Source: Gammaproteobacteria bacterium
GTDB lineage: Bacteria > Pseudomonadota > Gammaproteobacteria > Steroidobacterales > Steroidobacteraceae
Direction of reading: 5' to 3'
Length of the DNA stretch: 33,919 nt
Assembly (NCBI GenBank): GCA_021773365.1
Contig: JAJFKF010000104.1
Location: 1-33,919 of the forward strand
Shown piece by piece: positions 1,090 to 15,717 of this stretch. Position 1 is the stretch's first letter. Each line of letters begins with the position of its first letter. The notes below the pieces were generated by a model, which was given only the letters and a program-made list of their open reading frames with translations, was not told the origin of the DNA and ran no database searches. Position numbers and translations under genes: made by a program.

Positions 1090-1132
1090 TCGCACAGTCT
1101 TTCGGTGTCGCGGGGCGCCGCGGATGCGCGGC

Positions 1133-1161
1133 ATATTCCTGTTCGGCCCCTGAACTGTCAA
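1133..1161 (-). promoter_or_regulatory. Predicted bioB promoter
   Basis: On the minus strand a perfect -35 box TTGACA (1161-1156) is followed by a 17-base spacer and GAATAT (1138-1133). This places the start about 37 bases before the bioB ATG at 1089. The spacer holds an inverted repeat GTTC/GAAC separated by seven bases, which may be an operator. The promoter overlaps the short gap before comF. Confidence 0.55.
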
Positions 1162-1176
1162 CCGGAGGACGCATTC

Positions 1177-1932
1177 ATGGTTAACGGATGGACCGCGGGC
1201 TGGAATGCGCTGGCCAGGCGCACCCAGTGCTGGATTCTGCCGCCGAGCTGCGTGCTCTGCGGCGACAGAGGGCAGTCTCCACTACTGGATATCTGCGCAC
1301 CCTGCGCCGCTGATCTGCCGCTCAATCCCTCAGCCTGCCCCCGATGCGCCCAGCCCCTGCTTCCGGGGTTCGTCGTCCCAGGGGCCTGTGCCCGGTGCCT
1401 GAGTCGTCCGCATCCCTTCGACCGGGCCCTCGCTCCTTTTCTATATGACTATCCTCTCGACCACCTCATCCACGCCTTCAAGTACGGCGCTGTACTGGCC
1501 TACGGCAGGGTGCTGGGCACGCTGCTGGCGCATTACGTCTGTGCACGCGGGGAGCCACAGCCGCAGGCGCTGCTACCGGTGCCGCTGCATCCCAAACGCC
1601 ACCGGGAACGCGGCTTCAATCAGGCGCACGAACTGGCGCGCCCGATGGCGGAGCTGCTGGAAATTCCCATCGACGACACCTTGTGCCGCCGCAGGCGAGC
1701 GACGGAGGATCAGACGGAGCTGAACGCGGCACAGCGCCGCCGCAACGTACGCAATGCGTTCTGCCTGACGCGCAAGCCGCAGTACACACACGTGGCGCTG
1801 ATCGATGATGTCCTCACCACGGGCAGTACCGCCGGGGAAGTGGCGAAGATCCTCAAGCTTCAGGGCGTTGAACGGGTGGAAGTCTGGGCGATCGCGCGTG
1901 CCGCATCGCAGCTGCAGAAGGGGTCGCCATGA
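1177..1932 (+). CDS. comF: ComF-family phosphoribosyltransferase-like protein
   Basis: A 251-residue member of the ComF/GntX family, linked to DNA uptake in competent bacteria but with an unsettled biochemical role. The N-terminal third has a four-cysteine zinc-binding pattern (CVLC, CAPC, CPRC, CARC). The C-terminal half is a PRTase fold ending in the PRPP-binding loop [13 protein letters not shown]. The frame is open far upstream, but ATG 1177 has a good ribosome site (CGGAGGA, 1163-1169) and matches the family start. It is divergent from bioB. The stop at 1932 is followed by the ccdAB palindrome after 29 bases. Confidence 0.93.
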
Positions 1933-1961
1933 ACGTTCGGTTCAAGGCCCATCCCTTGCTC

Positions 1962-2002
1962 CCGGCACCTCCATGCGCATACTATGCGCATGGAGGTGCC
2001 GG
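1962..2002. repeat. 41-bp near-perfect palindrome, putative ccdAB operator
   Basis: Two perfect 20-base arms (1962-1981 and 1983-2002) are separated by a single C. The right arm contains the GGAGG ribosome site (1992-1996) of the ccdA start at 2004. In RNA the arms would form a long hairpin hiding that site. In DNA the palindrome is a natural target for the CcdA/CcdB complex, which autoregulates its operon in known systems. No clear -10/-35 was assigned. Confidence 0.75.
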
Positions 2003-2003
2003 C

Positions 2004-2255
2004 ATGAAACCCGCCTACAACACAGCTGCCCGCAAGCGCCCGGTCAATCTGACCCTGAATGAGGACCTCGTCGTCCGCGCCCGCAAGGTGACCGACAACC
2101 TGTCCGCCGTGGTCGAGTCTCTGCTGGCTGATTTTCTGGAGTCCGAAACACAGCGCCGCGCCGCCCAGGCAGACCTGATCGAGGCCACCGTGGCCACCTG
2201 GAATCGCTTCGCCGAAACGCATGGCGCCTTTGCCGACCAGCATTCGACGCTCTGA
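2004..2255 (+). CDS. ccdA: CcdA-family antitoxin
   Basis: Small antitoxin of a type II toxin-antitoxin pair, predicted to bind and neutralise the CcdB toxin encoded next and to repress the operon. The 83-residue protein has an N-terminal ribbon-helix-helix-like DNA-binding segment (PVNLTLNEDLVVRAR) and a C-terminal toxin-binding tail. That tail, ETHGAFADQHSTL, closely resembles the end of F-plasmid CcdA. The frame is open from 1929, but the ATG at 2004 has GGAGG seven bases upstream and removes a palindrome-encoded leader. The stop overlaps the ccdB start by one base (TGATG at 2253-2257), so the two are translationally coupled. Confidence 0.9.
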   Translation: MKPAYNTAARKRPVNLTLNEDLVVRARKVTDNLSAVVESLLADFLESETQRRAAQADLIEATVATWNRFAETHGAFADQHSTL

Positions 2256-2575
2256 TGGCGCAGTTCGACGTCCATCGCAATACCGGCAAGCACCGGAACA
2301 TCATTCCTTTCGTGGTTGTGGTCCAGTCCTCCTTGTACCAGGGCTACGGACGTCGTGTGGTCGTGCCACTGGTCAAGGTCTCCGCGCTGGGCAGGATTGC
2401 CAACCCGCGCTTCAATCCTGTGTTCCGGATCAGGAAGATTTCCGTAGCGCTTCACCCGCTGGAGATCGTTTCAGTCGCCAGCGATCAGCTGGGCGCACCG
2501 GTCGATTCGCTGGTGCAGGATGGCGACATCATCATTGCCGCGCTGGATGAGCTGATGACGCGAGTGGCCGGGTAA
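2255..2575 (+). CDS. ccdB: CcdB-family toxin
   Basis: The 106-residue toxin of the pair. F-plasmid CcdB poisons DNA gyrase. The family pattern is seen in the N-terminal QFDVHRN strand, the central GRRVVVPL stretch and the conserved SVASDQLGAPV segment near the C-terminal third. It differs from F CcdB in its last residues: F CcdB ends in a Trp-Gly-Ile tail needed for gyrase poisoning, whereas this protein ends LMTRVAG without tryptophan. Gyrase may still be the target, since chromosomal homologues vary here, but activity is not certain. It is encoded immediately after ccdA with a one-base overlap. Confidence 0.9.
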   Translation: MAQFDVHRNTGKHRNIIPFVVVVQSSLYQGYGRRVVVPLVKVSALGRIANPRFNPVFRIRKISVALHPLEIVSVASDQLGAPVDSLVQDGDIIIAALDELMTRVAG

Positions 2576-2617
2576 CACCGGCACCGTGACGGGAGTCTGC
2601 TGAAGGAGCTGCCCGCG

Positions 2618-2647
2618 GGCGAGCAGAAAATCCGATTTCCGCTCGCC
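2618..2647. repeat. Imperfect palindrome between ccdB and the sigma gene
   Basis: Arms GGCGAGC (2618-2624) and GCTCGCC (2641-2647) are perfect. The inner bases GAAAAT and ATTTCC extend the pairing with one mismatch. It could end ccdAB transcription or act as an operator for the sigma gene that starts 28 bases later. There is no T-run after it, so a simple Rho-independent terminator is less likely. Confidence 0.4.
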
Positions 2648-2674
2648 AGCCCTCAACCGATTTATGCTGTAAGC

Positions 2675-3253
2675 ATGAGTCCCGCCTCCGAAAACCCGCC
2701 TGTCCATGTTGCATCGCCCACAGCGGCGCGCGCTGAGGTCATTTCGCAGCTGTTCCGCGAGCACAACCGCGCACTGGTCAACTTTCTGTCGACCCGGCTG
2801 CGCGATGAGCAGGAAGCGAAGGAGGCCGCGCAGGAGGCCTACGTCAAATTGCTGCAGCTCGATCAGCCCGTGGCCAGCAGCATACTGCGCTGGACCCTGT
2901 TCAAGATTGCCCGCTGCATTGCCATCGACCGCCAGCGCCAACATGTGTCGCGCGGACGGGTGGACCGGCTGGAGGTTTTCGACGAGCTCGACGCCGCCAA
3001 CCCCACCGAGGGGCAGGCCATGGCGAGCGATGAGCTGGCGCGATTGCAAAGCGCCCTCGATGAGCTGCCACGCAAATGCCGACGCGCCTTCGAACTGCAG
3101 CGCTTTCACGGCCTGTCCACCGCTCAGATCGCCGCGGAAATGGGTTTGACCGACCGCATGATCCGTCACTATGTCCGTCGTGGGCTGGTCTACTGCCGCT
3201 TCCGCCTGGACGGCGCTTCACGCGCGGACGCGCGCAGGGAGGCACAGCTGTGA
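2675..3253 (+). CDS. ECF sigma factor, FecI type (module A)
   Basis: A 192-residue extracytoplasmic-function RNA polymerase sigma factor. Region 2 lies at about residues 25-100 (LFREHNRALVNFLSTRLRDE through KIARCIAIDRQRQ). Region 4 lies at about 125-180, with the helix-turn-helix LSTAQIAAEMGLTDRMIRHYV. The FecR anti-sigma gene follows with a four-base overlap (GTGA at 3250-3253), and a TonB receptor comes after that. This is the classic cell-surface signalling order. By analogy with FecI it should direct transcription of the receptor gene when the receptor binds its ligand. The start lacks a clear ribosome site and lies inside a small inverted repeat ATGCT-GTA-AGCAT (2664-2676). Confidence 0.92.
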   Translation: MSPASENPPVHVASPTAARAEVISQLFREHNRALVNFLSTRLRDEQEAKEAAQEAYVKLLQLDQPVASSILRWTLFKIARCIAIDRQRQHVSRGRVDRLEVFDELDAANPTEGQAMASDELARLQSALDELPRKCRRAFELQRFHGLSTAQIAAEMGLTDRMIRHYVRRGLVYCRFRLDGASRADARREAQL

Positions 3254-4197
3254 ACATCGCACCGGCTACACGCGCCGATCAGGCGGCGGACTGGTTCCTG
3301 CGCCTGCGCGAGGAGGCCTCGGAAGACGAACTGCGTGACTGGACCCAGTGGTGCTCCGAGGACGCGGAGAATCTGCGTGAGTACGAACGTATCCGCGCCA
3401 CCTGGCAGGGCCTGGGGCAACTTCCCACTGGTGGCGGGCGCAACATTGCGGCAACTTCAGCGCGCTATCGCGCCCTGGCTGCCGCGGCAGCTTGCCTGCT
3501 CATCGGCGGCGCCGCCGGGCTGGCGTGGAAATCCGGCTGGTTCATGCAGGATAAACAGGTACTGTCGACGCAGAAAACCACCAATGAGTCCGCCACGCTT
3601 CCCGACGGATCAACACTGACGCTGGCACCGCGCACCAATGTTGCAGTGGACTTCAGCGGCGCTACCCGCAGCCTTGATCTCTCGCAGGGTGAGGCTTACT
3701 TCACCGTGCATCCGGACAAACTGAAACCCTTTGTGGTGAAAACCGCCGGGCTGCAGGTCACGGCGGTAGGCACCGCCTTCAATATCAGGTCCGTGCCCGA
3801 TCGCGTGGTGGTGACAGTGACGGAGGGAATGGTCGAAGCCGCCAATGGCGCCGAAAGCTGGCGGGTGGCAGCCGGCCATCAGATCGACTACGACCTGCGG
3901 CACCGATCCGCGCGCATTGCCGCGGTCGATCCCGACCGCGAGCTGGGCTGGCGCGAGGGCAGGCTGGAGTACCTCGATAAACCACTGGCCACCGTGGTCG
4001 CAGATGCCAACCGTTACTCGGAACGGCGAATCGAGATCGCCGATCCGCAGCTGGAGGCGCTGACTTACACCGGCACCATTTTTACGCAGTCACTGGATGA
4101 CTGGCTGCAGGCCATGGAAAGTACCTTTGATATTGATGTGGAGACGCGTGGCGAGCGGGTGCTTCTGCGCGTCCGTGACAATGTTGCGGGCAGTTGA
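3250..4197 (+). CDS. FecR-family anti-sigma factor (module A)
   Basis: Inner-membrane regulator predicted to hold the preceding sigma factor and to receive the signal from the receptor's STN domain in the periplasm. The 315-residue protein has a cytoplasmic N-terminal domain (about 8-55, QAADWFLRLREEAS) and one membrane segment (about 74-93). A periplasmic FecR domain (about 103-200) contains LPDGSTLTLAPRTNVAVDF and VGTAFNIR, followed by a C-terminal receptor-contact domain (about 235-305). The GTG start at 3250 overlaps the sigma stop. The longer upstream frame would run inside the sigma gene and is rejected. The receptor gene begins 120 bases downstream. Confidence 0.93.
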   Translation: MNIAPATRADQAADWFLRLREEASEDELRDWTQWCSEDAENLREYERIRATWQGLGQLPTGGGRNIAATSARYRALAAAAACLLIGGAAGLAWKSGWFMQDKQVLSTQKTTNESATLPDGSTLTLAPRTNVAVDFSGATRSLDLSQGEAYFTVHPDKLKPFVVKTAGLQVTAVGTAFNIRSVPDRVVVTVTEGMVEAANGAESWRVAAGHQIDYDLRHRSARIAAVDPDRELGWREGRLEYLDKPLATVVADANRYSERRIEIADPQLEALTYTGTIFTQSLDDWLQAMESTFDIDVETRGERVLLRVRDNVAGS

Positions 4198-4272
4198 TTA
4201 CCTGCAGCAGAGACCGGTGTTGCCGCGAGGGCCGCACGGGAAATTTCCGCTTTGTCCGACTCACCCGGTTTA

Positions 4273-4300
4273 GGAGTTACAGGTACGGACCTGTAACTCC
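4273..4300 (+). promoter_or_regulatory. Perfect 12-bp stem hairpin before the TonB receptor gene
   Basis: Arms GGAGTTACAGGT (4273-4284) and ACCTGTAACTCC (4289-4300) pair perfectly around the four-base loop ACGG, 17 bases before the receptor ATG. It could be a DNA operator, a 5' untranslated RNA stabiliser or a translational control hairpin. The ribosome site (AGGGGAAG) follows directly. A ten-base palindrome GGAAATTTCC lies upstream at 4239-4248 and may be part of a sigma-dependent promoter, but no convincing -10 was found. Confidence 0.6.
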
Positions 4301-4317
4301 AAAATCAGGGGAAGCAC

Positions 4318-7026
4318 ATGCATCGATTCAAGTCATCGTTTCTGGTTCTCGCGGCAACCTTGATCTGCCTGCCATGCTGGGCGCTGGATCTGAGCCGCGA
4401 AGTGAAATTCAGTATTCCCGCCCAGGGGCTGGATGCGGCGCTGGTGGAATTCTCCAAGCAGGCGCAGCTGCAGGTGGTGACCTCCGGTGCGCAGGTGGGC
4501 AAGCTCAAGAGCGCCGGCGTGACCGGCAAGCTCAGCATTGCCGATGCGCTCGACCGGCTACTGCGCGCATCGGGGCTATCATTCAAGCCCGTCGGTGAGA
4601 GCGCCATTTCGATCGGCAGTTTCGAAGTCGATGCCCGCCGCGCTTCGCGGACACATGACATGGCGGTCGACGACAGTCTGCGTCTTGCCCGAACAGGCGA
4701 TGCGACCGCGACCGTGCAGGCAGAGGACGAACGCAAGGCGGAGAAGGCCTCGCGTGAGGCCATGGATGCAGCCCAGGGTGAAGCCCAGGAAATCGTCGTC
4801 ACCGGTACCAACATCAAGGGCGTGGCACCGGTCGGCTCGCCGGTCATCGTCATCGACGAGGAATCCATCCGCCAGAGCGGCTACTCCAGCACCGAGCAGC
4901 TGCTGCAGGCCCTGCCACAGAACTTCCGCGGTGGCCAGGCCGGCGCCGTCGCCGACCTGAACATGAGTACCGGCTCATTGAACCGCGTCAACGGTACGGC
5001 CGGTTCCGGCGTAAACCTGCGCGGCCTGGGCTCTGCCTCCACTCTGATGTTGATCAATGGTCGGCGCATCTCCGCATCCTCCGCAGGGACGTTCACCGAT
5101 ATTTCCATGATCCCCATTGCCGCCATCGAACGCATCGAGATCCTCAGTGACGGCGCCTCCGCCATCTACGGCGCCGACGCGGTGGCCGGCGTGATCAACG
5201 TTATCCTCAAGAAAAACTACGACACCGCCGAAAGCCGTGTGCGCTACGGCTTCACCACGGAAAAAGGACGCGAGGAACTACGCCTGTCGCAGAACTATGG
5301 CACCAGCTGGAACGGCGGTGGTATGACCATGGCCGTGGACTATCTTGATCAGAGTCAGTTGCTGGCCAGCGAGCGGGACTTCACCGCAAATGTGATTCCG
5401 CAGAACTCGATTTTCCCGGCCGATGAACTGATCAGCGGCGTTCTCAGCGCGCGCCAGCAGATCGGGCGCAACTGGATGCTGGAGGCCGACGTGCAGCACT
5501 CCCGCTCCGACCGGCGGCTGATCAGCGCCAGCTCCTTCTCTCGCAGCGAAAGCACGATCAAACCGGAGCGTACCAACGCCGTACTGAGCTTGGGATACGA
5601 GGCCTTTTCCGACTGGAGCTTTTCCCTGAATGGTTCCGTTAGCCAGGAGCACACCAAGGCGTACCTGACCAGCATCAATCCAACCACGGAGGCGGTGAAC
5701 TACACCTATATCCAGACGCAGAACCAGGACCAGCGCAGCGCTGAACTGCAGGGCAATGGATCGCTGTTTGATCTGCCTGCCGGTGCGCTGAAACTGGCCT
5801 TTGGCGGCTCCTATCGCGAGGAGGAATACTTTCGCTTCATCGACCTGTACAACTTCGGGCAGAGCGCGGATCGCGACGTATCTTCGGCGTTCGTCGAACT
5901 GCACATTCCGCTGATTGGCGCAGAAAATATCCGCCCGGGCGCACAGCGGCTCGAACTTTCCATGGCCGCGCGTTATGACGACTACGCCGACTTCGGCAGC
6001 TCCACTAATCCGAAGATCGGTCTGTCCTGGACGCCCTACGACAACCTGACGCTGCGCACCAGCTACAGCACCTCCTTCCGCGCGCCCTCGACCGGGTTCG
6101 AGCTGTACCAGGGTGATCGGGGGGTGACCGGCATCGACCTGCAGGCCTTTTATGCGCCCGACGGCAATGGCTTCGTTCCGGTGGTGCTGCTGTTTGGCTC
6201 AGAGCAGTTACGGCCGGAGGAATCAAAGAACTGGACGTTCGGCTTTACCTGGCAGCCCGATGCCCTGCAGGATCTGACCATCGGCTTCTCCTACTACGAT
6301 ATCTCCTATACCGACCGGATTATCGTGCCGCCCTTTGACTTCGGCGCTCTGGCCAATCCGCAACTGGCCGCATTCCTGGACTTCTACGACAGCCCGGCTG
6401 AAGTCGCGGCCATCGTGAACAGCTACGTGGCGCAGGGCGCGTTCCTGGGCGACTACACCAACGGTATTTTCGGTCCCGACCCGTTGAGCCAGATCACCAC
6501 GATATACAGCTACCTGCAGCAGAACGCCGACAGCGTCGACGTGAAGGGATTCGATGTCACGCTCGACTATCCCTTCAGCGCGGGCGGCAACCTGTTCAAC
6601 GTGGCCTTCAACGCCAACTACATCGACGGCATGGTCAACGTGCCCTCGCCAGGCGCGCTGGCCTACGACCTGGTGGACACCTTCGCCAATCCACCCGATC
6701 TGCGCTTCAGGAGTTCGCTGTCGTGGCTGCGCGGCGGTTTCAATGGCGCAGTCAATCTCAACTACACCGATTCCTACACCGACACCTCGGCTCTTGTCGA
6801 CCGGCGCGTGGAGACTTACGTAACGGTGGATACGACGCTGCGTTACATGTTCGACAATCCCGTCAGCCCCGTGCTGGATGGTTTGTCGCTGTCGCTGTTT
6901 GCGACGAACCTGTTTGACGAGTCGCCGCCTTATGTAGAGCTGTCCGGATCCAACGCCAACTACGACGGCGCCAATGCCAATCCTCTGGGCCGCTTCATCG
7001 GACTGGAGATTGCCAAACGCTGGTGA
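4318..7026 (+). CDS. TonB-dependent outer-membrane receptor with STN domain (module A)
   Basis: A 902-residue outer-membrane transporter/transducer. A signal peptide (about 1-22, ending CWA) is followed by an STN signalling domain (about 30-100; FSIPAQGLDAALVEFSKQAQL and RLLRASGLSF). The TonB-box-like motif EIVVTGTN (about 157) leads into a plug domain (about 165-300) with VNLRGLGSASTLMLINGRR and IERIEILSDGASAIYGADA. The remainder is a beta-barrel ending in an aromatic residue (AKRW). The STN domain should contact FecR, encoded just upstream, so transport and gene control are linked. The ligand is not evident. Upstream lies a strong hairpin. The next gene, a secreted redox fusion, is tightly linked and probably co-transcribed. 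Confidence 0.95.
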   Translation: MHRFKSSFLVLAATLICLPCWALDLSREVKFSIPAQGLDAALVEFSKQAQLQVVTSGAQVGKLKSAGVTGKLSIADALDRLLRASGLSFKPVGESAISIGSFEVDARRASRTHDMAVDDSLRLARTGDATATVQAEDERKAEKASREAMDAAQGEAQEIVVTGTNIKGVAPVGSPVIVIDEESIRQSGYSSTEQLLQALPQNFRGGQAGAVADLNMSTGSLNRVNGTAGSGVNLRGLGSASTLMLINGRRISASSAGTFTDISMIPIAAIERIEILSDGASAIYGADAVAGVINVILKKNYDTAESRVRYGFTTEKGREELRLSQNYGTSWNGGGMTMAVDYLDQSQLLASERDFTANVIPQNSIFPADELISGVLSARQQIGRNWMLEADVQHSRSDRRLISASSFSRSESTIKPERTNAVLSLGYEAFSDWSFSLNGSVSQEHTKAYLTSINPTTEAVNYTYIQTQNQDQRSAELQGNGSLFDLPAGALKLAFGGSYREEEYFRFIDLYNFGQSADRDVSSAFVELHIPLIGAENIRPGAQRLELSMAARYDDYADFGSSTNPKIGLSWTPYDNLTLRTSYSTSFRAPSTGFELYQGDRGVTGIDLQAFYAPDGNGFVPVVLLFGSEQLRPEESKNWTFGFTWQPDALQDLTIGFSYYDISYTDRIIVPPFDFGALANPQLAAFLDFYDSPAEVAAIVNSYVAQGAFLGDYTNGIFGPDPLSQITTIYSYLQQNADSVDVKGFDVTLDYPFSAGGNLFNVAFNANYIDGMVNVPSPGALAYDLVDTFANPPDLRFRSSLSWLRGGFNGAVNLNYTDSYTDTSALVDRRVETYVTVDTTLRYMFDNPVSPVLDGLSLSLFATNLFDESPPYVELSGSNANYDGANANPLGRFIGLEIAKRW

Positions 7027-7046
7027 GGTGCGCGAACATTCGCGGC

Positions 7047-8795
7047 ATGAACAGATTCAAAATTGCAGCTTCGCTTCTTCTCGCTTTCGGCATTGCCGGT
7101 GCACAACAGCCTGAACCGGTGGTCTGGGTTCCCCAGACCACCGCGGTGCAGGTCACGCCTGGCGGCCAGTTCACGGCAGGGCTCACGGCCCGACTGAAGT
7201 TCGGCTGGCACATCTATGCGCTCACCCAGCCACCGGATGAAGGCCCAATGCCCACCGAGATCGGCATAGCGGATGGCCAGCCATTCACGCAGGCTGGCAG
7301 GATTACCGGTGACGAGCCTCATGTGGTATTCGACGAGGGTTTCGGCGTCGAGGTGCAGCAGCACGAGGATGAAGTTGCCTTCAGTATTCCGGTGACCGCT
7401 GCCGCAGACATGGAGGTGGGCTGCACCACGCTTGATGTGACGGTGCGCTATCAGGCCTGTAATGCCTCAGCCTGCCTGCCGCCGGCAACAGAGACGTTGT
7501 CCATTCCGGTGCGTGTGGCTGCGGCCGAGGCAGGCATTGATCCGCAGGCTATCGCACTGCTTGCACGCGTGGAACAGAAGATGCGTGCGGCGACATCAAT
7601 CGAAGTTATTCGCCGCAGCAATCTGCGCCGCCCCGATGGCACCGCCGCTGGATGGCGGACGCTGAAGGTACAGGTCAAGCGGCCGGGAAAGTACCGTATT
7701 GAGGAATTGCAGGCCGACGAGGGCGCGCGCAGCACCTTCAATCATCATTCGCTGCGGGTGACCGATGGGCAGGTCCGTCTCACCGAACGCCAGCGCAACG
7801 GCGAGGTGCAACGGTACATTGAACACACCGCCGATGAAGAGATCTATGTCTGGGACGGCGATGTGCAGGCATTGGCCGGACTGTATGTCATAGACGATGA
7901 GCACCCCGGCATCGGGCATGACTGGCGCGCGCACAAGCTGCACGAGAACAACCTGCGCTGGGTACGGATGGCGGACGCGGAGGAGTGGGACGGGCAGCGC
8001 TACCAGGTGGTCGAGTGGGCCTACGACATTGGTTACTACCTGCCGGAGGAACAGGTCCGATACCGGCAGAAGCTGTACATCGGCGACGACCAGCTCGTAC
8101 ACCGGGTGGTGACGCATACCAGCAAGGAGGTTGTGCTCGAAGACCAGTTCCAGAAGATCGCGCTGGATGTCTCGCTGCCCGAGGCTTTGTTTGTGGTGCC
8201 ACCGTCCGAGGAAGCCGAGCCATTCATGCCGGTCTATCGTTCAAACTTCAAGGTCGGCGACACGTTGCCGGACTTTGAACTGAAAACACCCATGGGTGAA
8301 CCCATCTCGCTATCGGGCAGTCTGGCCGGCAAAAAGGGCGCCATTGTGTGGCTGTGGGGCTTCCGCTGCGGCAGCTGCCACGTCGAGTATCCGCTGCTGC
8401 AGCAGATGTACGAGGAGCTGAAGCCCCAGGGTTTCACTCTCATCGGCCTGGCGGGGCACAGCCCGGTGGAGCCGCTGCGCATCATTCAGCAGACGCACGG
8501 TGCCACGTTGCCGGTGGCGGTGGTTCCCGATGCGCGCGAACCGGACAGCATTTATGGACAGTACGGCTCGGGATGGAAAACGTTCTACGTAGTCGATGCG
8601 AACCGCCGCATCGTGCATATCGGCAGTTACGACGCCAGGAAATTTCGCGCGGCTATCGCTGAGCTGGGAGTCAGTTGGCCGCGGACGACCTCCTTGATAA
8701 ACACCGCGGGTACGCATGGAGTCTTGCGTTCTTCGCATGGAGGTCAATCACCGCCCGCGAATCACGATCTCCGTGCCCAATCGCTCGATCGCTAG
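7047..8795 (+). CDS. Secreted DsbD_N / LolA-like / TlpA thioredoxin fusion protein
   Basis: A 582-residue exported protein with a signal peptide (about 1-19). Residues about 25-157 resemble the N-terminal redox domain of DsbD, with YQACNASACLPP (C138 and C143, CxxxxC). Residues about 163-388 look like a LolA/DUF2092-type lipid-carrier fold (called with less certainty). Residues about 400-542 form a TlpA/redoxin thioredoxin domain with the active site CGSC (C441, C444). The loop where thioredoxins keep a cis-proline reads SGWKTF, with no proline. Residues 543-582 have no evident homology and their codons overlap the convergent fecR. An in-frame GTG at 7023 overlapping the receptor stop is an alternative start. 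Tight linkage to the receptor gene suggests one operon. Confidence 0.85.
   Translation: MNRFKIAASLLLAFGIAGAQQPEPVVWVPQTTAVQVTPGGQFTAGLTARLKFGWHIYALTQPPDEGPMPTEIGIADGQPFTQAGRITGDEPHVVFDEGFGVEVQQHEDEVAFSIPVTAAADMEVGCTTLDVTVRYQACNASACLPPATETLSIPVRVAAAEAGIDPQAIALLARVEQKMRAATSIEVIRRSNLRRPDGTAAGWRTLKVQVKRPGKYRIEELQADEGARSTFNHHSLRVTDGQVRLTERQRNGEVQRYIEHTADEEIYVWDGDVQALAGLYVIDDEHPGIGHDWRAHKLHENNLRWVRMADAEEWDGQRYQVVEWAYDIGYYLPEEQVRYRQKLYIGDDQLVHRVVTHTSKEVVLEDQFQKIALDVSLPEALFVVPPSEEAEPFMPVYRSNFKVGDTLPDFELKTPMGEPISLSGSLAGKKGAIVWLWGFRCGSCHVEYPLLQQMYEELKPQGFTLIGLAGHSPVEPLRIIQQTHGATLPVAVVPDAREPDSIYGQYGSGWKTFYVVDANRRIVHIGSYDARKFRAAIAELGVSWPRTTSLINTAGTHGVLRSSHGGQSPPANHDLRAQSLDR
8713..8742. repeat. Two CGCATGGAG direct repeats 21 bp apart
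   Basis: CGCATGGAG occurs at 8713-8721 and 8734-8742, two helical turns apart, at the 3' end of the fusion gene just before the convergent fecR stop. The second copy continues GT, matching the CGCATGGAGGT core in the arms of the ccdAB palindrome. This may be a scattered repeat or chance. Confidence 0.3.
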
Positions 8796-9785
8796 ATCCT
8801 CATCCACCGACAGTACTTGCGCCAGTGATTCCGGGTCGTACGCATCGAAGATACCGGAGTAGCGGCGCGTGGTGGCATCCGCGCCTTCGATGCGGATGCG
8901 GGGCGCGGCGTTGTAGCGGTTGAACTCGAGCACTATGTCGCCCAGCAGGCGCTCGCGGAACACCAGCCGCCGTTCGCGCCAGGCTACGGCGTTCTGGATA
9001 TCAGTTACCTTCTCTTTGGTGATCTGCCCGTCGCTGGCCACGGTGGCGGCCTGTCCGGCGTCCACCGGTAGCGGCTGCTGGGTGCTCACTCGCCGGTTGC
9101 TCACCTGCACCCGCCCCTTGAGTACGGCGATGGCGGTCTTCGTGCGGTGCCGATAGACGTTGAACTCCGTGCCCACGGCCTGCACGACGGCCACGCTCGT
9201 AGAGACGCGGAAGGGACGCGCGGCATCCGGCGCCACGGTGAACAGCGCCTCGCCCCGCGTTAGACGGATGTCGCGGGCGGCGTCCGAGTAATCCACTTCC
9301 ACGCGCGACTGGGTGTTGAGGTACATCACCGATCCATCCTGTAGTTTGATGATCTGCTGTTCGCCAATGGAAGTGCTGTAGCGATCGGCAGTGCTCCACG
9401 GGAGGAACAGGGCGACTGCCGCCAGCAACACCATGGCCGCGATGCCCGCCATGCCCCAGCGCCAATTCATGGTTCGCGACAGCGGCAGGCGCCGCGGCAG
9501 GTTTGTCGTGGATCGCGACGCGGCTTGCAGCGGCACGACGGCCTCACCGGCAACAGCCTCGGCGGATACCTCCATCGTCAATTCTCGCCGTGGATCGATC
9601 CGCGTGAGCGCTTGGTCGAGCGCGGCCACCAGCAGGTAATTACGTACATGCCGGCGCGACTCCATCAACCAGTCATCGAATGCCGCCCGCCGGTTTAGAT
9701 CGGGAGAGCGCTGCATCAGCAGATGCCACTGCGCGGCCTGCTCGAAGATGAGTTTCTCGTGCGTATGTCCCGGTTGTATGCTCAT
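8748..9785 (-). CDS. FecR-family anti-sigma factor (module B)
   Basis: A 345-residue anti-sigma/signal transducer. It has an N-terminal cytoplasmic part (about 10-65) with FDDWLMESRRHVRNY and a membrane segment (about 110-130). The periplasmic FecR domain (about 135-235) contains LQDGSVMYLNTQSRVEVDY and VGTEFNVY, followed by a C-terminal domain. A linker of about 35 residues before the membrane helix is longer than in the module A homologue. The ATG at 9785 overlaps the sigma stop by four bases (ATGA), which decides the start over an in-frame GTG nine bases upstream. The last 48 bases overlap the 3' end of the convergent redox-fusion gene. Confidence 0.93.
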   Translation of the reverse strand: MSIQPGHTHEKLIFEQAAQWHLLMQRSPDLNRRAAFDDWLMESRRHVRNYLLVAALDQALTRIDPRRELTMEVSAEAVAGEAVVPLQAASRSTTNLPRRLPLSRTMNWRWGMAGIAAMVLLAAVALFLPWSTADRYSTSIGEQQIIKLQDGSVMYLNTQSRVEVDYSDAARDIRLTRGEALFTVAPDAARPFRVSTSVAVVQAVGTEFNVYRHRTKTAIAVLKGRVQVSNRRVSTQQPLPVDAGQAATVASDGQITKEKVTDIQNAVAWRERRLVFRERLLGDIVLEFNRYNAAPRIRIEGADATTRRYSGIFDAYDPESLAQVLSVDEDLAIERLGTEIVIRGR

Positions 9786-10333
9786 CGGTCCCACCCCATC
9801 TGGGCCATCCTGGCCGTGGCCTCGACCACGTAGCGTTCGATGGTATGTACGCTCAGATTAAGTGCCCGCGCGGCCTCTTCGTGAGAAAGACCGTCGCGCT
9901 TGACCAGCAGTAGTACGGCCCGCTGCGTCCGCGGGAGCTTGAGCAGGCCGCGCACCAGCTGCTGCTCGAGGTTCAGCCGGTAGCCCGGCTCCTCGTTGCC
10001 TGCGGTGGGAACGGTCTCCTCGGCCTGCTCCAGTGTTTCCGAGTCAAAGGTCACGTGTTCATGTTCGCGATCCTCCCGCAGGCGGAACTCGCGGATCAGA
10101 TGCGCGGCGATGCTGAAAAGGTATGCCACCGGACGGCGGATCCGCTCCGGCCGCTCCACACGTATCAAGCGCAGAAAGGTCTCCTGCGCCAGATCGTTCG
10201 CATCCTCCGGGTGCGCCAGGCGCCGCGCCAGGTAGCGGTGCAGTTCCGCCGAATACTCGGTGAAGGCTGCACCAGCGAGCGTTGGACACTCCGGCGGGTC
10301 ATCGTTGTCAACCATGTCGGACACGTACTTCAT
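9782..10333 (-). CDS. ECF sigma factor, FecI type (module B)
   Basis: A 183-residue ECF sigma factor. Region 2 is at about residues 25-95 (YLARRLAHPEDANDLAQETFLRL). Region 4 is at about 120-175, with LSHEEAARALNLSVHTIERYV as the DNA-reading helix-turn-helix. The ATG at 10333 has a good ribosome site (AGAGGT). It is co-translated with the FecR gene that overlaps its end and is divergent from the second TonB receptor. An identical TCGTATAG element lies exactly 21 bases upstream of both the sigma and the receptor starts. This suggests both are read from similar promoters, perhaps by this sigma itself (inference). Confidence 0.92.
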   Translation of the reverse strand: MKYVSDMVDNDDPPECPTLAGAAFTEYSAELHRYLARRLAHPEDANDLAQETFLRLIRVERPERIRRPVAYLFSIAAHLIREFRLREDREHEHVTFDSETLEQAEETVPTAGNEEPGYRLNLEQQLVRGLLKLPRTQRAVLLLVKRDGLSHEEAARALNLSVHTIERYVVEATARMAQMGWDR

Positions 10334-10343
10334 ACGGACCTCT

Positions 10344-10361
10344 ACCCTATACGAGTAGGGT
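10344..10361. promoter_or_regulatory. Inverted repeat and TCGTATAG element before sigma gene B
   Basis: Arms ACCCTA (10344-10349) and TAGGGT (10356-10361) flank a six-base spacer. On the minus strand TCGTATAG spans 10354-10347, starting 21 bases before the sigma ATG. This is a candidate promoter or operator for the sigma-fecR pair. Confidence 0.4.
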
Positions 10362-10456
10362 CGCTGATCGAATCCGTACTATTTCTCTTACTGCGGGTTC
10401 TGCCTGCGAAAACACTCGAAGGAGGTGAGGGTCGCCACCGCGGCCACGCCCAAGTA

Positions 10457-10464
10457 TCGTATAG
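10457..10464 (+). promoter_or_regulatory. TCGTATAG element before TonB receptor B
   Basis: The same eight bases as upstream of the divergent sigma gene, again starting 21 bases before the start codon, and followed by a purine-rich ribosome site (AGAAGGGGG). It may be a shared -10 region of a sigma-B-dependent promoter. A matching -35 could not be assigned with confidence. Confidence 0.4.
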
Positions 10465-10477
10465 AAGGGGGACAACC

Positions 10478-13400
10478 ATGAGGCCGATTCGCCGCATTCT
10501 TTGGGGGCTGAGCGCAAGCGTGCTGCTATGCACCGCAACGCAGGCCGAACCGGTGCCCAAGCCCGAGGTGTCCTTCACTATCGAGCGCCAGCCGCTGCAG
10601 GATGCGCTGACGAAGTTCGGCCGGCAGACGGGATTCCAGTTGCTGTTCCTGGCCAAAGTGACGGCAGATGTGATGGCGCCGGAGGTGGTGGGAAAGTACA
10701 CGCCGCAGTCGGCGCTGGACCAGCTGCTGGTCAACAGCGGCCTGAGCTACCAGTTCGTCAACGAGCGCACGGTCGCCATCCGCGCGGCAAAAGGCGAAGG
10801 CAACTCAACCTCAGGCATGAAGCCGGTGGACCAGATGCGGATGGCGATGGTGGAGAAGGAGAACTACCAGCAAAGCTCCGTTTCCGAGGACTCTAAAGCC
10901 GATGTGACTGTCGAAGGCGAGCGCGAGCGACCGAAGCCGTTCAACGCTGCGAACATCGATCTGACGCGCACTGAGGAGGATGTGCTGCCGTTCACGATTT
11001 TCACCGCGCGGGATATCGAACTGTCCGGCGCATCAGACCTGGATGATTTTTTCCGTTCGCGCCTGCCGCAGAACTTCAGCGATGTGCATGCGGAAGAGAT
11101 CAACGGCGATCTGAACGCACCCACAATGTCGGCCAACGAAGTCAATTTTCGCGGTTGGGGTTCGGAGAGCAATGAGGTGGTGATTCTGGTCAATGGACGT
11201 CGCCTGCCGCCCCAGCGCATCACTGTGACCACGGATTTTGAGACGATTTCCGGGAACTTCCGTGGCATACCGCTGGGTTCGATCGAGCGCATTGAAGTCC
11301 TCTCCTCGGCGGGCGGGGCGATCTACGGTGCGGGGGCCACTGGCGGCGTCATCAATATCATTACCCGGGAGGACTACCGGGGCGGCCAGGTCACGCTCAA
11401 CTACGAACGGCCGTGGGAGGGGAGTGCTGCCAAACCGGCGGTGGATTTCCAGTACGGCGCGCCACTGCGTGGGGGCGTGAGTTTGCGCATGAGCGGCGGG
11501 TATAGCAAGACCGTGCCGCTGGAGGTGCGGGAGCGGGCGGAGGTGACCTCTCTGCGCTGGCGTCGGGCGGTGATGGCGTACAACCCGGCCATAATTACCA
11601 GTGATTACTTTCCGCCGCTAGGGGCGACACCGAACGTCAGTTCGATCTTTAACTTTTATCCGCTGTTCGGCGACGGTACGCCCTCGTTCACCTCCGTGCC
11701 GGAGGGTTATACGGGAGGCGGAGGCCTCGCGCCGTTCACGGCGCGGCAGGGCGTCTACAACCTGGATCTGTCCGCGGGGGAGGGCAACTTCCTCAATGCC
11801 TTCAGTGAGCACGCTACGCTGGGCACTGAACGCGAGGATCAGTACTTCAGCGTTGGCGCGGATCGATCCTTCGGGTCGGACTGGCGTTTATCGGTGGACT
11901 ACCGCCGCACCAGGGACGAGATGACCGGGAGCGGCGGGAACCTGCATGTTTACCAGACTGTTCCGGTAGAGGCACCCAGCAATCCGTTCGGTCAGCGTGT
12001 CATGGTGGTTTTTGACGATCCGCGGATGACGCGACCGGAGCTGATCCGGAACATGATCTCCGTCTCTGATCAATTCAGCGCTACATTGCGCGGCCGTTCC
12101 GGGCAGTGGCACGGCCTGATTGATTTCACATACACGCGCGATCGCAACGACTGGCAGCATGTGAACTTCGATTCGCCTCTGGGCGATATGTCTGGACGAT
12201 CCCTCGACCGCTGGCGGGATGCATTCAATGCGGGCCTGTATGACCCCTTCGTGGATATGCGGGTGGTCGCGCCAGCTGCGCCGGCGTTCTACGAGGACTA
12301 TGTACAGTCCCGGGGCATGAGCGGCAGCCGGGCCCGCCACTATCAGGCCACCGCCAAGCTGTCTGGTCCGCTGTTCGAGCTGCCGGCCGGTGCAGTGCAG
12401 TTGACCGCAGGCCTGGAGTGGCTGCGCGAGGACCGGTATGCGGTGTACAACGTCGAGCACCTGGTCAGCAGCCGCACCGGAGCGCTGCTGGCGTTGCCGA
12501 CGGCGAGCTCACAGCCCAACGCGATTTTCCAGTTTGATACCTATGCCGGATACGCCGAAGCGAATGTACCGCTGATAGCACCCCGGCAAGCCGTTCGAGG
12601 GGTGCACAAACTGGAGGTGTTTGGAGCCGGGCGCGTCAGCCATCAAGTTCGCGACGGTTTCAACAGCGCGGGCAAGGCGATCGAATACAAGACTGATCCG
12701 TATCTGTATGTCGCGGGGTTGCGCTACGATGCTATCGAAGGCGTGGCGCTGCGCGCCTCGTGGAGCATCGGCTTCAAACCGCCGGTGCTCGGTCAGGTCG
12801 CGCCCGCCGACCCCAATCGGCCCGATCTTATGGTCAACGTCATCGACCGCAAGCAGAACAACCTGCCGCGCACGTTGCTGTTCGATCAATTCGTCGGGGG
12901 CGGCAATCCCGGCCTTGATCCTGAGTCCACCGACTCGGTCAACTACGGACTGATCCTGCAGCCGCCCGTAATTCCGGGATTGCGATTTTCCGTGGACTAC
13001 GTACAAAGCACGCGTGATGACGCCATCACCGGAGTGACACCGCAGAATGTCCTCGATCTGGAGGATGCGCTGCCCGGGCGCGTGCGGCGTGATGAGGCCG
13101 GACAGATCACCTTCGTGGACGCGCGCGCCGTTAACTTCAATCTCATCCGTTCCAAGAGCATCGATTTTAACCTCAGGCAGCAGATCGACAGTCTGTTCGG
13201 TGGACGGGTGGTGCTGACTGTCGCGGCAACCAAGAACCTCAGCTTCAGGGTGCAGCCTACCGCGAGCAGCCTGCCAACCGAACTGGTGCGCAATCCCTCT
13301 GGCTTCGACCTGTCGCGGCAACTAAAGTGGAACGGCAACGGGCAGTTACAGTGGGAAGGCCAACAGTGGACCTTTGGCTGGAGCGCACGCTATTTCGATC

Positions 13401-13681
13401 TGGTGCTGCCCAATCCATCAACCGCTCTAGTTGTGCCCGGGCACGAACGGGCCGAGCGGGAGATCGAGCATGATGCCTTCGTCAACTACCGCGTTGCGGA
13501 CACCGGCGTCGCAGGCGGGCTTAGTGCGTGGCTTTCGGGTGCCTCGATGACACTGGGTGTGAAGAACGTCTTCGATCGCGAGCCGCGCTTCTGGGCAGCG
13601 AACTACGGTTTTGGCTACGTGGGCTTCGACAGCGTCACCGGCCGCAACGTGTGGCTACAGCTGCGCAAAACCTTCGAGTAA
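10478..13681 (+). CDS. TonB-dependent outer-membrane receptor with STN domain (module B)
   Basis: A 1067-residue receptor, larger than the module A one. A signal peptide (about 1-23, ending TQA) is followed by an STN domain (about 30-110; FTIERQPLQDALTKFGRQTGF and LLVNSGLSYQFV). A linker rich in charged residues precedes the plug (about 145-300), with VNFRGWGSESNEVVILVNGRR and IERIEVLSSAGGAIYGAGA. The beta-barrel ends in LRKTFE, with a C-terminal aromatic near the end. The frame is open far upstream, but ATG 10478 starts the signal peptide and has a strong ribosome site. It is divergent from its sigma/fecR pair. The FG-GAP and DsbD_N genes downstream share its direction and are probably functionally linked. 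The ligand is unknown. Confidence 0.94.
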   Translation: MRPIRRILWGLSASVLLCTATQAEPVPKPEVSFTIERQPLQDALTKFGRQTGFQLLFLAKVTADVMAPEVVGKYTPQSALDQLLVNSGLSYQFVNERTVAIRAAKGEGNSTSGMKPVDQMRMAMVEKENYQQSSVSEDSKADVTVEGERERPKPFNAANIDLTRTEEDVLPFTIFTARDIELSGASDLDDFFRSRLPQNFSDVHAEEINGDLNAPTMSANEVNFRGWGSESNEVVILVNGRRLPPQRITVTTDFETISGNFRGIPLGSIERIEVLSSAGGAIYGAGATGGVINIITREDYRGGQVTLNYERPWEGSAAKPAVDFQYGAPLRGGVSLRMSGGYSKTVPLEVRERAEVTSLRWRRAVMAYNPAIITSDYFPPLGATPNVSSIFNFYPLFGDGTPSFTSVPEGYTGGGGLAPFTARQGVYNLDLSAGEGNFLNAFSEHATLGTEREDQYFSVGADRSFGSDWRLSVDYRRTRDEMTGSGGNLHVYQTVPVEAPSNPFGQRVMVVFDDPRMTRPELIRNMISVSDQFSATLRGRSGQWHGLIDFTYTRDRNDWQHVNFDSPLGDMSGRSLDRWRDAFNAGLYDPFVDMRVVAPAAPAFYEDYVQSRGMSGSRARHYQATAKLSGPLFELPAGAVQLTAGLEWLREDRYAVYNVEHLVSSRTGALLALPTASSQPNAIFQFDTYAGYAEANVPLIAPRQAVRGVHKLEVFGAGRVSHQVRDGFNSAGKAIEYKTDPYLYVAGLRYDAIEGVALRASWSIGFKPPVLGQVAPADPNRPDLMVNVIDRKQNNLPRTLLFDQFVGGGNPGLDPESTDSVNYGLILQPPVIPGLRFSVDYVQSTRDDAITGVTPQNVLDLEDALPGRVRRDEAGQITFVDARAVNFNLIRSKSIDFNLRQQIDSLFGGRVVLTVAATKNLSFRVQPTASSLPTELVRNPSGFDLSRQLKWNGNGQLQWEGQQWTFGWSARYFDLVLPNPSTALVVPGHERAEREIEHDAFVNYRVADTGVAGGLSAWLSGASMTLGVKNVFDREPRFWAANYGFGYVGFDSVTGRNVWLQLRKTFE

Positions 13682-13686
13682 TCGCC

Positions 13687-13806
13687 ATGCCCTATACCTT
13701 AAAAGGCGCGTTTTATGGCGCCCACGCTCTCCTCGTGCCCCTATGCGCGGCGCTGTTCCTGCTCGATCTTCCACCCCTTGACCCTGATGCTTCGTGGAGA
13801 TGCTGA
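13687..13806 (+). CDS. Possible 39-residue small protein
   Basis: An ORF beginning five bases after the receptor stop, encoding MPYTLKGAFYGAH and a hydrophobic stretch (ALLVPLCAALFLLDL) that could be a membrane segment. There is no good ribosome site and no recognised family. It may be translated by coupling to the receptor gene or may be chance. The remainder of the gap to 13911 holds only a short palindrome, TTGCAG-T-CTGCAA (13889-13901), just before the next start. Confidence 0.2.
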   Translation: MPYTLKGAFYGAHALLVPLCAALFLLDLPPLDPDASWRC

Positions 13807-13911
13807 CTCGCGCCGGCATCTAAGATCCCACCGTTCGCCGACAGCGCCCAGCTTGTTCTAGGCACGTTTCTGAAATTCGATGAGTTTTTTGCAGTCTGCA
13901 AGGATAACGTA

Positions 13912-15234
13912 ATGAAATATAGGTACTTGTGTAGTAGGTTCATATTGCTACTGCCACTGATATCCACAATGGCATGCGCAGCTGAACAGACATGGCATCG
14001 GCAGCCCTTTCGCCTGGAGGCGGGCGGAAAAATGATCGATACCAATCCGGCCGATCCTGGCGGCCATGCGGGTCCGTATCTGGCAGATCTGGACGATGAC
14101 GGCCGTCGGGACCTGGTGGTTGGCAGCATAAGCGGACGATTCCAGTTGTTTCGCAACATTGGCCTGGACAGCGAACCGAAGTTCTCGGCCAACCCGACCT
14201 GGTTGATGTCGGGCGAAGCGCCGGCCGCAGTGCCGAACTTCTGCTGCGTAGCCTCCGGCCCTCAGATAGTCGATGTGGACGGTGACCATATTCTGGATCT
14301 AACCTCAGGCAGCTACGCGCCAGGCGCGATCTATTGGTTCAAGGGCTTGGGCGACGGCCGCTACGCCACTCGGCTTATGTTTACCGACTTTCTCGGGTTG
14401 CCCGTATTTGCACATCCCGAGAAGGTGTACGAGTACGACAGTCGTAGCGATTCCTATGCCGCAAACATCGCGTGGATAGACTGGGACAATGACGGTCTGC
14501 AGGATCTGGTCATCGGTGACAGTTCTGGAGAGCTGTTTGTTCGGCTGCAGAAAGAGGCCGACGACAATGATCCGACCCCTCCCCCGATCAAGGGCCAGCC
14601 GATGTTCTGGCCCAAGGACTGGCAGACGCGTTCGGGAAGGATTAACGAAGTTCTGGTCAATGGTGAGAAGACCATTCCTGACTTCCACTCCGCGCCAGCG
14701 GTGGCGGATTGGGACGGCGATGGATTGTTCGACATTCTGGTCGGCAGCTACAGCGGTGCAGTGTACTTGTTACGCAACTCCGGCAAGATCGGTGAACCCA
14801 AATTCAACAACTGTGAGCAACTGATCGGCCCGGGGGTGGCGATGCAGTGGTTAGAGCCGGGCGAGGTGCCGAAACGTGGCCGGCGCAGTCAAGTACACGT
14901 GGCTGACTTCAATAACGATGGTAAGCCGGACCTGCTGGTCGGCGATTGGTTCATGCTGACTCAGCCACGCACAGACCTGACGGCAAAGGAGCGCAAGGAG
15001 ATGCAGGTCATTCATGCGCAGCTGGTAGCGCTGGACGAACAGACCGGTTACGACTTCAGCATTGCACGCTACAAGGCCAAAGCGTACTCGGGCAACGATA
15101 GAAGAGAAGACATGAAGAAGGCGCAGGGGCTGGAGAAACGGCTGCAGCCGTACGTGAAATCCTACCGCTTTGGGAGTAGCCGGGTGTCGACGCAGAGCTA
15201 CCACGGCACCGTGTGGGTGTTTCCGAGTAAATAG
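13912..15234 (+). CDS. Secreted FG-GAP/VCBS repeat protein
   Basis: A 440-residue exported protein with a signal peptide (about 1-23, cut near ACAA). Five FG-GAP-type repeats carry the calcium-loop pattern DxDxDGxxDL: about 59-70 (DLDDDGRRDLVVG), 121-134, 190-203, 266-279 and 332-345 (DFNNDGKPDLLVG). Such repeats build beta-propellers like that of integrin alpha chains and usually bind calcium and partner molecules. Residues 350-440 are helical and charged, with no recognised domain. A vicinal pair Cys111-Cys112 and Cys301 are notable beside a DsbD_N gene. It lies in the same direction as the upstream TonB receptor, 230 bases away, and 21 bases before the DsbD_N gene. No catalytic motif was seen. 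Confidence 0.88.
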   Translation: MKYRYLCSRFILLLPLISTMACAAEQTWHRQPFRLEAGGKMIDTNPADPGGHAGPYLADLDDDGRRDLVVGSISGRFQLFRNIGLDSEPKFSANPTWLMSGEAPAAVPNFCCVASGPQIVDVDGDHILDLTSGSYAPGAIYWFKGLGDGRYATRLMFTDFLGLPVFAHPEKVYEYDSRSDSYAANIAWIDWDNDGLQDLVIGDSSGELFVRLQKEADDNDPTPPPIKGQPMFWPKDWQTRSGRINEVLVNGEKTIPDFHSAPAVADWDGDGLFDILVGSYSGAVYLLRNSGKIGEPKFNNCEQLIGPGVAMQWLEPGEVPKRGRRSQVHVADFNNDGKPDLLVGDWFMLTQPRTDLTAKERKEMQVIHAQLVALDEQTGYDFSIARYKAKAYSGNDRREDMKKAQGLEKRLQPYVKSYRFGSSRVSTQSYHGTVWVFPSK

Positions 15235-15255
15235 TCTGGGAATGAGGACAACCTG

Positions 15256-15717
15256 ATGAACGACCGATCGTCCCTATGCGGAATACTGGCGGTTGCCGGC
15301 ATGCTTTTCTTCTGCTTATTTAGATGTGGCATTGCACATTCGGCTGAGACCCCGGCCGCGTCTGCTTCGTTGCAACTGATTCCCGCCACGGCAGCAGCTG
15401 GCGAGCCGATGGAGCTTCGGTTGGTGCTGACCGTAAATGACCCCTGGTACGTGTACGGCCATATGCCCGGCGATGGCGGTCAGAAGCCTCTGAACCTACG
15501 CCTGAAACTCCCTGCAGGCGTGAAAGCGGTGGATGGATGGCAGTGGCCCGAAAACAATGCCATCCTGAATGCTGGCCAGCATGTATTCAGGCAGAAGCTA
15601 CAGATCGACTCCGTGACAGAGGGCATGCGTGTTACGGTGAGGCTGGCCTACCAGGCTTGCAATGCACAGCTGTGCCTGCCAGTGGAGATGATCGAGCTGA
15701 GCACGAAACTGCGGTGA
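15256..15717 (+). CDS. Free-standing DsbD N-terminal-domain protein
   Basis: A 153-residue protein with a signal peptide or membrane anchor (about 5-30, ending AHSA) and one DsbD_N-like immunoglobulin-fold domain (about 35-152). The redox pair is C135 and C140 in AYQACNAQLCLPVE, the same CxxxxC motif seen in the module A fusion. In DsbD this domain passes electrons from the membrane part to periplasmic thiol proteins. Here no membrane or thioredoxin part is attached or encoded nearby, so the electron source is unclear. ATG 15256 has GAGG about ten bases upstream. It follows the FG-GAP gene by 21 bases and probably shares its transcript. Confidence 0.85.
   Translation: MNDRSSLCGILAVAGMLFFCLFRCGIAHSAETPAASASLQLIPATAAAGEPMELRLVLTVNDPWYVYGHMPGDGGQKPLNLRLKLPAGVKAVDGWQWPENNAILNAGQHVFRQKLQIDSVTEGMRVTVRLAYQACNAQLCLPVEMIELSTKLR

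Follow-up and report, generated by a model that had tools for sequence, protein, structure and literature searches.

What would a TonB-dependent receptor and its signaling genes gain from a neighbor that handles thiol electrons? Two adjoining loci raise this question in a Gammaproteobacteria bacterium of the family Steroidobacteraceae (assembly GCA_021773365.1), on contig JAJFKF010000104.1, whose positions 1 to 33,919 (33,919 nucleotides) form the window analyzed here. Module A (2675 to 8795) and module B (8748 to 15717) each hold a complete FecI-FecR-STN TonB-receptor set together with a secreted DsbD_N protein. An earlier note, made from the sequence alone, had described this arrangement, and Pfam confirms it. 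We propose, with a probability of about 0.5, that the modules couple ligand import to the reduction of disulfides in the periplasm, with the DsbD_N domain linking this reduction to DsbD. The proposal draws on gene order, domain content, redox cysteine pairs and recurrence within the genome, all of which are read from sequence. The two loci are not special twins: both belong to a very large family of FecI-FecR-STN receptor modules. Their features, with lengths in amino acids (aa), are as follows.

2675 to 3253, plus strand: extracytoplasmic function (ECF) sigma factor of module A, 192 aa (Sigma70_r4_2, 6.9e-14; TIGR02937 above cut-off)
3250 to 4197, plus strand: FecR anti-sigma protein of module A, 315 aa from GTG 3250 (FecR, 7.1e-20; DUF4880)
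4273 to 4300, no strand: in the leader of receptor A, an inverted repeat with perfectly matched 12-bp arms around a 4-base loop (sequence inspection and folding)
4318 to 7026, plus strand: STN-domain TonB-dependent receptor A, 902 aa (STN, 4.1e-08; Plug; barrel; Pfam)
7047 to 8795, plus strand: three-part protein A, secreted by inspection, 582 aa from ATG 7047 or 590 from GTG 7023 (DsbD_N, 1.9e-13; AhpC-TSA, 2.3e-11)
7131 to 7499, plus strand: DsbD_N domain of protein A, with CNASAC at 7458 to 7475 (Pfam, alignment)
8253 to 8618, plus strand: redoxin domain of protein A, with CGSC at 8367 to 8378 (AhpC-TSA match)
8748 to 9794, minus strand: FecR anti-sigma protein of module B, 348 aa (FecR, 2.2e-24)
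9782 to 10333, minus strand: ECF sigma factor of module B, 183 aa (Sigma70_r2, 7.4e-12; r4_2, 6.3e-11)
10478 to 13681, plus strand: STN-domain TonB-dependent receptor B, 1067 aa from ATG 10478 (STN, 1.6e-07; Plug; barrel; Pfam)
13912 to 15234, plus strand: FG-GAP protein, 440 aa, with a signal peptide by inspection (FG-GAP_3, 1e-23)
15256 to 15717, plus strand: free-standing DsbD_N protein B, 153 aa, with a signal peptide by inspection (DsbD_N, 2.7e-07, above the Pfam cut-off)

The four genes of module A are co-directional, in the order ECF sigma, FecR, receptor and three-part protein; the FecR start overlaps the end of the sigma gene by 4 bases, and the three-part protein begins 20 bases behind the receptor stop if ATG 7047 is used. 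Behind a signal peptide recognized by inspection, the three-part protein places DsbD_N first, a beta-rich part in the middle and a TlpA/ResA-type redoxin last. The DsbD_N redox pair is C138/C143 (CNASAC, numbered from ATG 7047). The C-terminal redoxin, which the earlier note had not recorded, reads WGFRCGSC around its CGSC motif, a CxxC pair of the thioredoxin type without the layout of a peroxidatic cysteine. Its relatives in the Protein Data Bank (PDB) are ResA chains; the protein does not pass the NCBIfam ResA model (34.2 bits, cut-off 170). AlphaFold is confident only at the redoxin, with block means of 71 to 96 over residues 401 to 540, and to call the middle part “LolA-like” would be a guess.

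In module B the FecR and ECF sigma genes lie on the minus strand, divergent from the receptor gene, which is followed by the FG-GAP gene and then the free DsbD_N gene; the FG-GAP gene between receptor and DsbD_N is a further addition to the earlier description. A longer frame for receptor B, of 1208 aa, would reach back into the sigma gene. The DsbD_N redox pair is C135/C140 (CNAQLC at 15658 to 15675), so that both CxxxxC pairs are intact, within a fusion in A and in a free-standing protein in B, as had been noted. The FG-GAP protein has a vicinal Cys-Cys (codons 14242 to 14247) that is invariant in its C49 paralogue, at 48% identity. The DsbD_N domain of B lacks 8 residues present in its two paralogues, a gap that maps to the cap loop of Escherichia coli nDsbD in a weak profile alignment. 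In Foldseek, its model matches DsbD-alpha at E 4e-05 with poor superposition (root mean square deviation [rmsd] of 7.8, and 5.4 to the loop-deleted 5nhi); adaptin ear domains also appear in the list, at lower rmsd.

The leader of receptor A also drew our attention. Its hairpin (window 4261 to 4312) is very stable on folding (-51.3 kcal/mol, z -3.8), occurs once in the window, and has an exact core that is missing from 165 compared loci. It is possibly an RNA or operator element. A window-wide Rfam search gave no match, no sigma-70-type promoter was found in the window, and terminators there were no more numerous than in shuffles.

How singular are the two modules? The genome (3.97 Mb, 98.95% complete, 0.74% contamination) encodes at least 150 Plug domains (the best 150 of 180 candidates) and at least 150 FecR domains (the best 150 of 175). 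A listed FecR lies within 2.5 kb of 120 of the 150 listed Plugs, giving at least 120 FecR-receptor pairs. Because FecR is upstream on the same strand for 63 of the listed receptors and upstream on the opposite strand for 57, the layouts of A and B are the two common ones. We estimate roughly that receptor, FecR and sigma genes of typical length, 150 sets in all, would occupy about 700 kb, or about 18% of the genome. A review (PMC9249621) gives 121 receptors for Bacteroides thetaiotaomicron and 75 for Sphingomonas fuliginis, both fewer than the 150 or more Plug domains here, although counting methods may differ.

A quickly built tree of 42 of the genome's receptors has a median terminal branch of 0.87 changes per column; since the receptors are thus old paralogues, duplication in the assembly does not explain their number. 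The tree also keeps receptors A and B apart, with B on a long branch, so that a recent duplication of A into B is rejected; the exact places of the long-branched B and C49 receptors are unsure. The modules also differ in gene order (co-directional in A, divergent in B) and receptor size (902 versus 1067 aa), differences from which the earlier note had already argued that a recent duplication was unlikely. Among 58 relatives, Plug candidates number 6 to 74 and FecR matches 0 to 13. In 368 other genomes of the class the FecR maximum is 11 matches, and none of those listed has more than 14 candidates, in a search that scored 13 of this genome's own candidates and in which genomes without a match were mostly unlisted. 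The expansion of receptor modules is apparently lineage specific. Upstream of 62 receptor and 67 sigma genes, we found no dyad beyond shuffles that could mark a shared promoter; a small number of GC-rich 6- to 7-mers were slightly above shuffles there.

Is thiol chemistry a recurrent neighbor of these receptors? For 38 of the 150 listed Plugs, an AhpC-TSA domain lies 1.8 to 4.2 kb downstream in the same orientation, the distance at which the following gene begins; the figure was counted by distance and strand. Other placements are rarer: on the opposite strand there are 3 downstream and 2 upstream, and on the same strand 8 upstream. The downstream same-strand excess has a binomial P of about 5e-27 against 4.5% expected. 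The genome holds 91 AhpC-TSA/redoxin matches, 89 of them above the family cut-off; six relatives hold 9 to 23. Redoxins in frames of at least 300 aa are within 5 kb of a listed Plug in 60 of 74 cases, and those in shorter frames in 5 of 17. In loci fetched from this genome, which were picked for redoxin or DsbD_N matches and therefore give biased proportions, genes were called with a simple custom script; for 30 of 42 receptors longer than 800 aa, the gene that follows on the same strand encodes the redoxin. Thus, the part of the earlier note that tied the receptor system to thiol chemistry is supported, as the coupling recurs.

We sampled 20 regions from six relatives, mainly long frames out of 83 matches. 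None has a redoxin gene directly behind a receptor, and the same script called a redoxin gene in 18 of them; in one (L135) it is three genes behind a receptor on the same strand. Within this sample, the receptor-then-redoxin order looks special to the lineage of the window. At L066, L072, L083 and L084 (C4, C48, C119 and C135), we also observed proteins with redoxin domains in tandem, two or three each, encoded directly behind the receptors, and at L051 (C107, 1238 to 8557, plus strand) a 2439-aa protein that the redoxin model matches at its C-terminal end only, encoded four genes before a sigma-FecR-receptor-redoxin module.

The Pfam family name, AhpC/TSA, invites the reading that these proteins are peroxiredoxins guarding the cell against imported redox-active ligands, and weaker peroxiredoxin matches do occur in the NCBIfam lists. 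However, 57 of 60 redoxin domains in the fetched loci keep a CxxC motif (WATWCGPC is commonest, with 26), and the relatives on top in NCBIfam and the PDB are mostly ResA, TlpA and DsbE, far below the NCBIfam cut-offs. On the CxxC motifs we reject the peroxiredoxin reading, and we consider peroxide defense very improbable.

Does the DsbD_N domain itself belong with the receptors? The genome holds at least six DsbD_N genes (A, B, C49, C15, C45 and C18), four of which are in receptor modules; six is a lower bound, as a genome search with PF11412 gave four places and missed B and C45. The order at C49 is sigma, FecR, receptor, FG-GAP, DsbD_N and DUF885, and at C15 it is DsbD_N, sigma, FecR, receptor and redoxin. 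The C18 gene is a DsbD (DsbD_N plus DsbD_TM) cut by a contig end. Since the matches of A and B are both above Pfam's curated cut-off and the pairing recurs elsewhere in the genome, we take the pairing of DsbD_N with receptors to be more than chance.

It might still be that DsbD_N is a passenger with no role in the receptor system, spread by module duplication. The loss of the cap-loop region in B would fit such a history, as would the absence of free-standing DsbD_N relatives from the other genomes searched, which we describe below. Set against this, the redox cysteines are kept in all four module copies and in C45, and the cassette of FG-GAP and DsbD_N genes follows two receptors, those of B and C49, that lie apart in the tree. 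Four of the five DsbD_N genes that are not DsbD are in modules, for which P is about 0.016 if modules make up about a quarter of the genome, itself a very rough estimate. We judge the passenger explanation distinctly unlikely.

Outside this genome, searches returned little. Scanning contigs of the wider genome set with a DsbD_N alignment gave 48 pattern matches and no relative, and the FG-GAP alignment gave one weak locus, in Aureicoccus marinus (29% identity), with two long FG-GAP-model proteins and no receptor called. A class search over 369 genomes, this one included, found DsbD_N in 15 of the 368 others, all in frames of 694 to 835 aa and none free-standing; FG-GAP matched in 10 other genomes, none spanning more than 136 of 458 positions. 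Nine of the 58 relatives have DsbD_N, eight in frames of 668 to 941 aa and one in a 308-aa frame, where the match begins at base 602 of a contig. A plasmid search with protein A gave no match. In the PDB, a three-row DsbD_N profile found nothing at E 0.01, and the C45 protein alone found chance matches only.

The DsbD_N copies also show how companions vary. DsbD_N and the redoxin are separate genes at C15 and one protein in A, a case of fission or fusion, and the C15 receptor is the closest to receptor A in the tree (46% identity, support 100). At C94 (L053), the gene behind a receptor encodes an FG-GAP-redoxin fusion, and elsewhere in the genome DUF4369 is joined to a redoxin in two proteins and a redoxin to DUF3738 in one. 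Judged by such arrangements, DsbD_N, redoxin and FG-GAP domains behave as exchangeable parts of one kind of companion. The earlier view of the two modules as a distinct DsbD_N type is not supported: DsbD_N is a rarer flavor of companion and not a defining module type, one of several exchangeable companions that include redoxins, FG-GAP proteins, erythromycin-esterase-like proteins, a peptidase and a lasso-peptide cluster.

If a companion reduces a disulfide, which protein could hold it? A tight linkage to the receptor gene might suggest housekeeping, in which the thiol protein folds or repairs the receptor or FecR. Cysteine counts largely refute this idea. Among 30 redoxin-linked receptors, 21 have no cysteine after residue 40, 7 have one, 1 has two and 1 has four, and the periplasmic parts of FecR lack cysteine in 42 of 45 cases in the fetched loci. 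The window receptors have cysteines only within their first 20 residues (residues 17 and 20 in A, residue 18 alone in B). On these counts, receptor and FecR are rejected as thiol targets; the earlier suggestion that receptor assembly needs thiol reduction thus becomes unlikely, and we give housekeeping very little credence. Because receptors and FecR are nearly cysteine free, the cargo or another periplasmic protein is the likelier target. The vicinal Cys-Cys of the FG-GAP protein may be a substrate in module B, a possible but weak candidate judged from its conservation.

Under our preferred reading, receptor-coupled disulfide reduction, an external ligand would bind the receptor, whose STN domain would signal through FecR to the ECF sigma factor, and the freed sigma factor would raise expression of receptor and companion, as in the FecIRA family. 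The ligand would be drawn into the periplasm, where the companion would reduce a disulfide in the cargo or in a cargo-handling protein. nDsbD passes electrons to DsbC, CcmG and DsbG, and CcmG has a thioredoxin fold (PMC7347389). By analogy, the DsbD_N part of protein A could take electrons from the DsbD system and pass them in cis to the redoxin, so that the known nDsbD-to-CcmG pair would be joined in one chain. In B, a DsbD_N without a protective cap loop might act on cargo or on the FG-GAP vicinal cysteines. PMC7347389 also describes a cap loop that shields the nDsbD cysteines and a variant, with H66-K73 replaced, that is nearly unchanged in structure; the B domain resembles this engineered loop deletion, and its shortened cap loop may leave the redox pair exposed or relaxed.

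Could the chemistry instead be the reductive release of metals, with receptors importing metal chelates and thiol proteins reducing or accepting iron or copper in the periplasm? Iron carriers are the classical ligands of FecI/FecR/STN receptors (PMC9249621). In the PDB, a five-row DsbD_N profile best matches 6c29 (E 0.0007), named a “putative metal resistance protein” and representing the N-terminal domain of ScsB, ahead of nDsbD (E 0.02 and weaker). On the other side, the redoxins are TlpA/ResA-like with CxxC, some other receptors have esterase-like proteins or a peptidase as companions, and no ferric reductases were seen among the companions scanned. We consider metal release unlikely.

The other companions come from 20 receptor loci picked because no listed redoxin lay near the receptor (one, L159, proved to hold a redoxin). 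Erythro_esteras proteins, confirmed by Pfam, are beside receptors in 4 of the 20: behind the receptor on the same strand at L149 and L152 (C66 and C102), and convergent on the opposite strand at L154 and L158 (C73 and C52). Erythromycin-esterase-family proteins are perhaps a second recurrent companion. Further neighbors in these loci are an S41 peptidase, BNR-repeat proteins, a cyclophilin and a benenodin-like lasso-peptide cluster. In part, such neighbors fit companions that process peptide or ester cargo; for A and B they prove nothing. We tentatively suggest a broader program of importing a ligand and then opening it chemically, in which many of the well over 100 modules would include an enzyme that unlocks the cargo in the periplasm. 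Disulfide-bearing peptides or conjugates would be served by disulfide reductases (TlpA-like, and in A wired to DsbD), and other cargo by esterase-like enzymes or peptidases.

Several observations weigh against receptor-coupled disulfide reduction. No listed redoxin lies downstream on the same strand at 1.8 to 4.2 kb for 112 of the 150 listed Plugs, and several of the 20 sampled redoxin-less loci (L147, L148, L150, L157, L163 and L165) have no evident companion; it follows that these receptors do not generally require thiol chemistry. Leaving aside the DsbD_N pair and the signal peptide, module B shares with C49 no conserved cysteines other than the FG-GAP Cys-Cys, and the DsbD_N of B, lacking its cap loop, may be a degenerate relic. 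The middle part of protein A has no Pfam family above cut-off and no reliable AlphaFold model (mean pLDDT of 52 for the whole protein). The C45 DsbD_N gene, about 520 bases from a contig end, has no receptor on its visible side.

Some loci met along the way are worth recording. At L151 (C85, 25700 to 36000; features at 311 to 2888, plus strand, 3025 to 6015, plus, 6058 to 6207, minus, and 6399 to 8004, plus), the lasso-peptide cluster has a B2 protein above the NCBIfam cut-off and an asparagine-synthase-type cyclase, and it adjoins a TonB receptor, an ECF sigma factor and FecR. Its benenodin-like precursor, of 49 aa (30.2 bits against a cut-off of 33), has the C-terminal end GGFIGGPDGGAGMCIC; two C-terminal cysteines, as in this precursor, are to our knowledge unusual. 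At L062 (C21, 11725 to 18441, plus strand), a sigma-FecR pair precedes proteins of 1245 and 418 aa, with no receptor between; by inspection both are CxxCH rich and multiheme cytochrome-like. M16 and M24 peptidase-family genes lie within a few genes of receptors at L152 (C102, 4 to 1365, minus strand) and L153 (C10, 7701 to 9395, plus strand).

How do these modules compare with known systems? As in FecIRA-type surface signaling, ECF sigma factor, FecR anti-sigma protein and STN-domain receptor share one locus in both A and B; unlike it, this single 4-Mb genome holds at least 120 pairs of FecR and receptor, and many of the receptors are closely followed by a secreted thiol protein. The DsbD_N proteins share with nDsbD/DsbD-alpha the domain family, the Y-Q-x-C...C redox pair and a fold match. 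They differ in that no DsbD transmembrane domain was matched by Pfam in the window proteins, and in their CxxxxC spacing, where E. coli has C103...C109. TlpA, ResA and CcmG serve cytochrome c or spore maturation; the redoxins here have the same AhpC-TSA/redoxin domain with CxxC but are receptor linked and fused to DsbD_N, DUF4369, FG-GAP or unassigned parts. SusC/SusD loci of Bacteroidota contain DUF4369 plus AhpC/TSA proteins with FecI/FecR, an architecture echoed by the two DUF4369-redoxin proteins of this genome, whereas the receptors here are long and of the STN type and the genome is gammaproteobacterial.

In the open-licence literature, as far as its texts were available to us in part, we found no description of receptor-redoxin coupling. 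The recurrent order of receptor and redoxin genes makes a testable claim about thiol chemistry in TonB-dependent import, with dozens of natural replicates in one genome. Protein A, in which an electron-donor domain is joined to an acceptor of the kind it naturally serves, offers a handle for biochemistry, and the DsbD_N of module B may be a naturally occurring equivalent of the cap-loop deletion engineered in nDsbD. If the broader program suggested above is true, receptor-coupled periplasmic reduction would be a new import step in Gram-negative bacteria.

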